Below the pieces are notes generated by a model. That model was given only the letters and a program-made list of their open reading frames with translations. It did not search any database and was not told where the DNA came from. From NCBI GenBank assembly GCA_020350725.1, contig CP070719.1, forward strand, positions 1,108,827 through 1,132,897: a stretch of DNA of 24,071 nt. Direction: 5' to 3'. The translations under genes and the position numbers were made by a program. Source of the stretch: a bacterium. GTDB lineage: Bacteria; BMS3Abin14. This document shows, in pieces, positions 8,062-10,303 of this stretch (positions within the stretch are counted from its first letter, which is position 1; every line of letters begins with the position of its first letter).

Positions 8062-9255
8062 ATGGCGAAAGAAATGTTTTTGGCTGGCTGTTCAGCCGCC
8101 GCTCACGGAGCCAAGCTGTCGAGGGTGGAGGTCATCAGCTCCTACCCCATCCGACCCTACACGGGCATCATGATGGAGCTCTCGAAACTGGTCGCCAACG
8201 GCGAGCTCGACGCCGAGTTCGTCCACGGTGAGGGCGAGCATGCCCAGGTCTCCATCGCCTACGGGGCTTCCGCTGCCGGGGCGAGGGCCTACACGGGCAG
8301 CTCAGGTGTCGGCGTGACCTACGCCATGGAGTGCTACTCCCCCGCCGCCGGCGGACGGCTGCCCTGCCAGATGGCCATCGCGGACCGGGCCCTGGATCCC
8401 CCGGGTGACTTCGGGTCCGAGCACACAGACGTCATGAGCGCCCGCGACCAGGGGTGGATCATGGGCTGGGCCGAGACGCCCCAGGAGGTCCTCGACAACA
8501 CCATCATGTACTTCCGGATCGGGGAGGACCCCGGTGTCATGCTGCCCCAGTTCTGCTGCCAGGACGGCTACTTCGTCTCCCACATCCCCGGCAAGGTGGT
8601 CTATCCCGAGCAGTCCCAGGTGGACGAGTATCTCCCGCCCTTCAAGAATCCTCACCCCCTGGATCCAACCAAACCGGTCTCCCACGGACCCCAGATCTAC
8701 CCCGACCAGGGGCCGGCCATCGACCTCCAGAGGGCCCAGGCGTTCATCGACGTCCCGAAGGTGATCAGGAAGGCTGTCAAGGAGTACAACGAGATCTTCG
8801 GGCGGGACTACAGCCCCTTCCTGGATGAGTATAGGACCGACGACGCCGATTTCGTCTTCTTCCTCCAGGGGGGACATGCCCGGACGGCACGGTACGCTGT
8901 CAACCACCTCAGGGACAAGGGCGTCAAGGCCGGCATGGTGAAACTGCGCTTCCTGCGCCCGTTCCCCACCGAGGAGATCGCCGAGACCCTGTCGAAATTC
9001 AAGGCGGTGGGAACCGTCGAGACGAGCACCTCCTACGGCGGGGCCATGAAGGGCGGAAACCTGATCCACGAGGTGCGGGCCGCTCTCTACGACGTGCCCA
9101 AACCGCCCGCCGTCACCTCCTTTATGGCCGGTCTGGGCGGCGAGGTCGTCACCCTGGATGAGTTCTACAACATGGCCAAGGTCCTCGCCCAAGCCGCCAA
9201 GACGGGTAAGGTCGATCAGTACGTCTACTGGGTGAACTTCGACAAGGGGGTCTAG
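8062..9255 (+). CDS. 2-oxoacid:ferredoxin oxidoreductase, alpha subunit (probable oxalate oxidoreductase)
   Basis: A 397-residue alpha subunit (domains I and II of PFOR) that forms the substrate pocket with the thiamine-binding beta subunit. The usual YPITP motif is changed to YPIRP: Tyr28, Arg31. Further on are Arg109, Asp112, Asp116 and Phe117. These are, from memory, the residues and numbers described for the oxalate pocket and mobile switch loop of Moorella thermoacetica oxalate oxidoreductase, whose alpha chain has almost the same length. In pyruvate enzymes residue 31 is Thr, so a second Arg would suit a doubly charged substrate. Glu59 is the likely thiamine N1' contact. The second domain has GGHARTARYA and LRFLRPFP. 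AGGAGGAGG gives a very strong ribosome binding site. Expected reaction: oxalate = 2 CO2 + 2 electrons to ferredoxin. Another dicarboxylic 2-oxoacid remains possible. Confidence 0.85.
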   Translation: MAKEMFLAGCSAAAHGAKLSRVEVISSYPIRPYTGIMMELSKLVANGELDAEFVHGEGEHAQVSIAYGASAAGARAYTGSSGVGVTYAMECYSPAAGGRLPCQMAIADRALDPPGDFGSEHTDVMSARDQGWIMGWAETPQEVLDNTIMYFRIGEDPGVMLPQFCCQDGYFVSHIPGKVVYPEQSQVDEYLPPFKNPHPLDPTKPVSHGPQIYPDQGPAIDLQRAQAFIDVPKVIRKAVKEYNEIFGRDYSPFLDEYRTDDADFVFFLQGGHARTARYAVNHLRDKGVKAGMVKLRFLRPFPTEEIAETLSKFKAVGTVETSTSYGGAMKGGNLIHEVRAALYDVPKPPAVTSFMAGLGGEVVTLDEFYNMAKVLAQAAKTGKVDQYVYWVNFDKGV

Positions 9256-9325
9256 TCGACGGGTCAATACTCGCGAGCGCGTCAGGGGATCCCTCCCTGA
9301 TGCTGTTTTAAAAGGAGACTGAATA

Positions 9326-10303
9326 ATGGCGAAAGCAGTGGAAACTCAGAATTTGGAAGCGGTCAAGTCGATCCGCAGGGTCCCCCAGGAGGAGTATTAC
9401 CTTCCCGGGCACCGGACCTGCCAGGGCTGCGGCCCTGCCCTGACCTACAAGCTGGTGTCCAAGGCGGCGGGGCCCGACTCGATCTTCCTCGGCCCCACGG
9501 GATGTATGTACGTGGCCAACACCAGCTACCTGTGCAGCCCCTGGGCCTATCCCTGGATGCATACCCAGATCACGAACGCCGGCGCCGTCGCGTCCGGGAT
9601 CGAGGCGGCCTATCAGGTCCTGATCCGCAAGGGCAAGTACAAGGGCAAGCTTCCCAACATCGTGGTCATGGGCGGCGACGGAGGCTCCATCGACATCGGC
9701 CTCCAGGCCATGTCCGGACTGATGTACCGGGGCCACGACGTCCTCTTCATCATGTACGACAACGAGTCCTACGCCAACACGGGCATCCAGACCTCGCCCG
9801 CCACCCCGTACGGGGCCAACACGACCTTTACGCCTCCTGGCGAAGCCATCCCCGAGGGCAAGGTGCTCTTCCCCAAGGACGCCCCCCAGCTGGTCATCGG
9901 CGGGCATCCGGCCGTGCACTACGTCGCCACGGCGTCGGTGGCCTATCCCGTCGACCTCATCAACAAGGTCAGGAAGGCCCTCAACTACAAGGGTCCGTCC
10001 TTCCTGCACATCCACAGCCCCTGTCCGAAGGGCTGGATGTTCGACGCCGCCAAGACGGTGGAGGTCGCCAAGCTGGCTATCGAGACGGGAATGTGGGTCA
10101 ACTACGAGTGGGAGAAGGGTGAGTACACGTACCAGCACACTCCCAAGGAATACAAGCCCGTCAAGGAATACATGAAGACCCAGCAGCGCTTTGCCCATCT
10201 CACCGACGCGCACATCGCCAAGATGCAGGCATTCATCGACGCGCGCCTGAAGGCCCCCGGAATACCGGTGGCACTCCCCGTGCTGGGACCGAGGGAGGAA
10301 TAA
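9326..10303 (+). CDS. 2-oxoacid:ferredoxin oxidoreductase, beta (thiamine diphosphate) subunit
   Basis: A 325-residue beta subunit binding thiamine diphosphate and the proximal [4Fe-4S] cluster. Cluster ligands: Cys32, Cys35, Cys60 and the Cys of HIHSPC near residue 235. The thiamine motif starts GGDGGS (Gly117-Asp118-Gly119) and ends at Asn146, 28 residues later, then YANTG. The segment around [15 protein letters not shown] and the [11 protein letters not shown] block are characteristic of separate-subunit enzymes. TAAAAGGAGA lies before the ATG; the gap after alpha is 70 bases. It completes the gamma-delta-alpha-beta set. The protein is cytoplasmic and would act as a dimer of heterotetramers, judging from relatives. 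Confidence 0.92.

Follow-up and report, generated by a model that had tools for sequence, protein, structure and literature searches.

Gene content of the locus

The window, by which we mean the whole stretch of 24,071 nucleotides analyzed here, belongs to a genome (G000) that consists of a single contig of 2,777,163 bases. On its + strand, a CDC48-type ATPase gene and an FCD-GntR regulator gene are followed by the gamma, delta, alpha and beta genes of a predicted oxalate oxidoreductase (OOR) and by tctC, tctB and tctA:

4079..6256, + strand: CDC48-family AAA+ ATPase, candidate OOR-dedicated remodelling ATPase (TIGR01243, 808.4 bits, cut-off 802.65)
6263..7000, + strand: FCD-type GntR regulator (PF07729, PF00392)
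7064..7669, + strand: OOR gamma subunit, 201 aa, POR domain lacking the glycine-rich motif linked to CoA (5c4i_B residues 12-207, 174 bits)
7699..8046, + strand: OOR delta subunit, ferredoxin-like, 115 aa (98.9 bits to 5c4i_B residues 227-314)
8062..9255, + strand: OOR alpha subunit with oxalate-pocket and switch-loop residues, 397 aa (NF045791, 608.1 bits, cut-off 500)
9326..10303, + strand: OOR beta subunit, 325 aa (508 bits to 5c4i_C)
10615..11595, + strand: TctC-type binding protein of a tripartite tricarboxylate transporter (PF03401), 311 bases after beta
11708..12196, + strand: TctB small membrane subunit (PF07331)
12424..13947, + strand: TctA large membrane subunit (PF01970)

Delta contains two CxxCxxCxxxC motifs, at residues 50 and 81, and beta carries the TPP motif (GDG...N at 117) as well as the cysteines of the proximal [4Fe-4S] cluster. 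As gamma and delta lie just upstream of the region 8062-10303 to which an earlier note on this DNA had assigned the enzyme, the feature should start at 7064. Alpha and beta are 70 bases apart, and in this interval a terminator-like hairpin of ten pairs, followed by a T-rich stretch, is found at 9279-9303; it could serve in the attenuation of beta or in the protection of the message.

Further out, the region is flanked by a GTP-type PEP carboxykinase (1813-3606) and a putative pyruvate phosphate dikinase (18835-21501, named from its sequence), a setting that fits gluconeogenic growth on small acids. An NAD-dependent epimerase-like gene at 14056-14997 recurs at L034, L037, L050, L078 and L090, with 39-45% identity in distant loci; it accompanies OOR in Moorella, Nitrospirota and Syntrophaceae.

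Assignment as a probable oxalate oxidoreductase

The OOR of Moorella thermoacetica (PDB 5c4i, 5exd, 5exe) is the best PDB match for all four chains, with 545 bits for alpha, 508 for beta, 174 for gamma and 99 for delta, whereas the four-subunit pyruvate:ferredoxin oxidoreductase (POR; PDB 9bt4) reaches 229, 278, 46 and 60 bits, respectively. Judged by these scores, the margin over the nearest pyruvate enzyme is far beyond chance. The alpha chain is 61% identical to that of M. thermoacetica and passes the curated OOR-alpha model NF045791. In the fused-chain model NF045790, gamma and delta are each aligned to the corresponding section, and as one concatenated chain they reach 330.5 bits (cut-off 230). 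Beta, with 581.9 bits, stays under the cut-off of 590 of the curated OOR-beta model NF045792, the next-best model being PorB with 327. Other OOR loci also have betas under this cut-off, and the shortfall may not be telling: the beta of L034 (titled Nitrospiraceae) scores 551.6 bits, yet the next gene there passes the oxalate/formate antiporter model.

Alignment with chain 5c4i_A leaves the numbering unchanged through the pocket, and the alpha residues that the earlier note had matched to Moorella, namely Tyr28, Arg31 (in YPIRP), Arg109, Asp112, Asp116 and Phe117, are indeed identical at the same numbers. For Moorella OOR, the literature supports Arg31, which is part of a unique YPIRP motif, as well as Arg109, and it supports Asp116 as a residue of the bait-and-switch mechanism (PMC5020499). 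At position 28, several relatives have Phe instead of Tyr. We take Tyr28, Asp112 and Phe117 to be functional sites of the Moorella enzyme too. The gamma subunit begins with YQITIWARGVVQDMEG, where POR-type relatives have FHGRGGQGAVTSAE, and at the site of the glycine-rich motif it reads IWARGVVQDMEG in the window and WARGVVMNKDAR in Moorella, as compared to GRGGQG in POR-type gammas (L139, L143). The loss of this motif, likewise pointed out earlier, and the WARGV-type N-terminus are common to Moorella and other bacterial OOR gammas. With both the alpha residues and the gamma motif as described, the testable observations of the earlier note are confirmed.

The POR of PDB 9bt4 resembles the window enzyme in fold, in the plan of TPP and clusters and in having four subunits, but differs in its YPITP motif and its loop SAPINIW; the chemistry of four-subunit PORs is CoA-dependent. 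The POR signature (YPITP in alpha, GxGGQG in gamma) is not found in the window enzyme. The genome holds a second, POR-like 2-oxoacid oxidoreductase (G000:C1:1227343) with MESIGGMGANLAG, YPITP and SGPLDI at the corresponding places. In our view, the window genes in all likelihood encode a CoA-independent, TPP-dependent OOR of four separate subunits, which very probably oxidizes oxalate to carbon dioxide.

Phylogeny and gene fusion

A scan of species genomes yielded 80 loci, 61 of them bacterial OORs (two pairs share identical alpha chains) and 19 archaeal relatives. In an alpha tree of 83 rows, a check that the earlier note had suggested, the window alpha falls together with that of Moorella into a bacterial OOR clade of 61 rows (support 100/99) and not inside the pyruvate enzymes. 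An archaeal YPIRP sister clade stands outside the bacterial OORs, and POR and the genome's own paralogue are placed further out. Every member of the bacterial clade in the table of compared residues keeps R31, R109, D112, D116 and F117, and position 116 is Asn or Ala in the archaeal sister clade. The assignment as OOR is strongly supported by scores, residues, tree and neighboring transporters, and from these we infer the activity on oxalate.

Among the 61 bacterial loci, gamma and delta are split in 43 and fused in 17, one locus being not judgeable. Fused chains occur in Moorella, Thermosediminibacter, Syntrophomonas and others, split ones for example in Clostridium drakei, C. carboxidivorans, C. 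luticellarii and Megasphaera paucivorans. As the split is the commoner state, the four-gene form is ordinary for OORs and does not, as had been proposed, extend the class; nor is the class little described in so far as three curated NCBIfam models already exist for it.

The window shares with Moorella the subunit content, the pocket and switch-loop residues, the loss of the gamma motif, the upstream CDC48 and GntR genes and, as M. stamsii and M. mulderi show, the order gamma-delta-alpha-beta. It differs in that gamma and delta are separate genes, in having the TctCBA transporter where Moorella has an LctP-like permease, and in a host without acetyl-CoA synthase. The split-gene OORs of Clostridium (L042, L047, L067, L070) and M. 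paucivorans (L052) have the same four genes in the same order with CDC48 upstream, and their alpha chains are 58-60% identical to that of the window; unlike in the window, an OxlT-type MFS permease follows beta in the Clostridium loci where this was scanned (L042, L067).

A second, uncharacterized class of YPIRP enzymes, in which residue 116 is Asn or Ala, is found in archaea (L079-L098) and in three bacterial loci (L140-L142, in G096, G148 and G285). GRGGQG is absent from its gamma wherever gamma was read, and two of the bacterial members adjoin TctA/TctC. In Thermoplasmata (L094), a permease of the oxalate/formate-antiport family, scoring under the cut-off, comes after beta.

Transport, regulation and host metabolism

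An organic-acid permease gene lies no more than 4.5 kb after beta in 33 of the 48 bacterial loci with enough downstream sequence (18 OxlT-like, 9 LctP-like and 6 TctA). Of the OxlT-like proteins, five were scanned, and each passes TIGR04259, the curated model for the oxalate/formate antiporter, a result that independently ties the whole clade, and not Moorella alone, to oxalate. The window itself has no OxlT; TctCBA stands in its place, and the tctC gene is kept beside OOR in relatives. Since it fills the same place as the permeases of other OOR loci, we read TctCBA as the putative importer of the substrate. The FCD-GntR protein is probably the regulator of the operon; a GntR/FCD gene is close to many OOR loci, including that of Moorella.

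The phylum of the window genome comprises 12 genomes, all of one family, and an OOR alpha over the cut-off is present in 11 of them. Close relatives are titled Proteobacteria, Deltaproteobacteria or just bacterium at NCBI. The earlier placement in a probable Desulfobacterota genome is doubtful in spite of some Deltaproteobacteria titles; as far as the analysis shows, the genome does not belong to GTDB Desulfobacterota. A sulfate reducer of the Desulfobacterota is likewise contradicted by the absence of DsrA from all 12 genomes of this single-family phylum. Acetyl-CoA synthase (CdhC) was found in none of the 12, which speaks against an acetogenic host and upholds, for the window's family, the view that the enzyme occurs outside acetogens. 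No formyl-CoA transferase (Frc) was detected in the 12 genomes either, and by that test a CoA route for oxalate is ruled out. That no haem-copper oxidase was found in G000 speaks against an aerobic electron sink.

As to other sinks, G000 has NuoF/NuoG-like genes grouped with formate-dehydrogenase-like ones (L144). At a second site (L145), a cytochrome b subunit accompanies a gene of the formate dehydrogenase-N type (G000:C1:1870527-1873271) that is interrupted by a single in-frame TGA. Given these genes, electrons from oxalate could reach NADH, formate or quinone. The TGA is probably a selenocysteine codon, and a formate dehydrogenase gene interrupted in this way is present in most genomes of the phylum.

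Proposed mechanism and substrate

By analogy with the published work on the Moorella mechanism, as far as it is named in PMC5020499, oxalate would enter the cell, probably via the adjacent TctCBA transporter, and would be held by Arg31 and Arg109 of alpha. TPP at the alpha-beta interface would then attack one carboxyl carbon, upon which the first carbon dioxide would leave. Two electrons would pass one at a time through three [4Fe-4S] clusters (one in beta, two in delta) to ferredoxin, and switching of the Asp116/Phe117 loop would set free the second carbon dioxide, with no transfer to CoA. Expression is probably controlled by the FCD-GntR protein, and the linked CDC48 ATPase probably acts on the enzyme in its assembly, repair or turnover, this being the least certain step. 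Part of this scheme follows what we take to be the mechanism of Moorella-type enzymes, and the residues and cluster motifs that it requires are present in the window enzyme.

Two other readings of the substrate deserve attention. The enzyme might be a YPIRP-type 2-oxoacid oxidoreductase that acts mainly on another small acid, such as glyoxylate, mesoxalate or a C3 2-oxoacid, and uses oxalate poorly. TctCBA systems usually carry di- and tricarboxylates, and the sister clade (L079-L098, L140-L142) shares R31, R109 and D112 but not D116, so that this type of pocket extends beyond the proven oxalate enzymes. The window enzyme, however, carries every pocket and switch-loop residue of the Moorella set, D116 and F117 included, and belongs to the clade of the proven enzyme, where curated oxalate/formate antiporters come after beta, and we regard a different main substrate as improbable. 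An ordinary pyruvate or branched-chain 2-oxoacid:ferredoxin oxidoreductase would belong to the same superfamily and share the subunit plan of four-subunit POR, but YPIRP replaces YPITP, GRGGQG is missing from gamma, the alpha scores differ by more than 300 bits, alpha stands outside POR in the tree and the genome possesses a separate POR-like enzyme. On residues, scores and tree we reject this reading, to which we attach hardly any likelihood.

A CDC48-type ATPase linked to OOR

The most interesting neighbor, on which the earlier note was silent, is the CDC48 ATPase, an ATP-driven machine that unfolds proteins. It consists of an N domain (PF02359) and two AAA modules (PF00004 twice), the plan of archaeal CDC48/VAT (PDB 5g4f; 399 bits over the N-D1 stretch), and has intact Walker A and B motifs, sensor 1 and arginine fingers in both modules. 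The same motifs are kept in most of the 50 OOR-linked copies compared. Loci were counted as testable if over 1.5 kb of sequence precedes gamma, and as linked if a CDC48 gene ends within 1.2 kb of gamma. By this count, 52 of the 54 testable bacterial OOR loci, among them that of Moorella, have CDC48 upstream in the same orientation. L064 and L056 lack it, the latter on a contig with just 2.2 kb upstream of gamma. The bacterial loci concerned are the window, L019-L078, L090 and L136, and according to their record titles they come from Bacillota, Thermodesulfobacteriota, Nitrospirota and others. At the 19 archaeal YPIRP loci, no CDC48 gene is found.

Within the phylum of the window genome, ten genomes have both OOR and a full-length CDC48 (TIGR01243), the latter in one copy each; G008 has neither, and G010 has OOR only, the contig there breaking off 127 bases ahead of gamma. 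Among 290 sampled bacterial genomes, CDC48 occurs in 11 of the 12 with an over-cut-off OOR and in 20 of the 278 without (Fisher p 4e-11, a value that overstates the case, as 11 of the 12 OOR genomes are of one family). The linkage across phyla is the stronger evidence. In a 71-row CDC48 tree, all 51 OOR-linked copies are separated by a fully supported branch (SH-aLRT 100) from 19 other bacterial copies and archaeal VAT; as this tree, made by a quick method without bootstrap, is unrooted, it shows a split rather than proof of a single origin. We found no paper in the open-access literature that links CDC48 with oxalate and Moorella, and the link may still be reported elsewhere.

From this conservation of gene neighborhood, we posit that the linked ATPase probably acts on OOR, in assembly, repair or turnover. 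Going further, we tentatively suggest, as an about even prospect at best, that bacterial OORs depend on a CDC48-type ATPase of their own that assembles, reactivates or removes the TPP/iron-sulfur complex. CDC48 could also be a chance or transcription-unit neighbor with a general role in protein quality and no specific action on OOR. We know of no biochemical link between the two, and the 20 sampled genomes with CDC48 and no over-cut-off OOR agree with such a general role. Against it speak the same-strand linkage in several phyla, the co-occurrence within the phylum (the one OOR genome without CDC48 having its OOR at a contig end), the split of the OOR-linked copies from other CDC48s and the absence of the gene from all archaeal YPIRP loci. 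We consider a mere neighbor a serious possibility, though not a likely one, and prefer a specific action of the ATPase on OOR.

A Pup-type partner for the window's CDC48 was rejected, as no Pup_ligase was found in its phylum. In seven Methanomethylicota loci (L079, at 3496-7022, L080, L081, L083, L085, L086 and L088), from genomes that are close relatives, proteins of the Pup-ligase family (PafA/Dop-like) precede the YPIRP enzyme; five loci have two of them, L086 and L088 one. Also upstream of the enzyme there is a protein of 95 aa with KYEPPP or RYEPPP at its end; in one pairwise hhalign test without control, its profile was similar to that of the CDC48 N domain (probability 82%). If true, this arrangement would point to an old tie between the YPIRP enzyme class and protein-remodelling machinery.

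Implications

The window enzyme is a sound new member of a known, rarely studied enzyme class in an unusual host, which belongs to an uncultured group of bacteria. To our knowledge, OOR has so far been characterized in one acetogen. A 2021 survey of oxalate degradation in the gut omitted it for lack of information (PMC8062136). The presence of OOR in 11 of 12 genomes of a small phylum without CdhC and DsrA, and in several other phyla, suggests that oxalate may serve as an electron donor well beyond acetogens.

The four-gene form is not new. The conserved CDC48 neighbor is the new point here and the part worth following. The link offers a concrete, quickly testable idea of how active OOR is produced and maintained, and it points to a gene worth co-expressing if the enzyme is to be made in another host. 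A CDC48 on which OOR depends would, if true, be a case of the same kind as Rubisco with its AAA+ activases, a metabolic enzyme served by a remodelling ATPase of its own.
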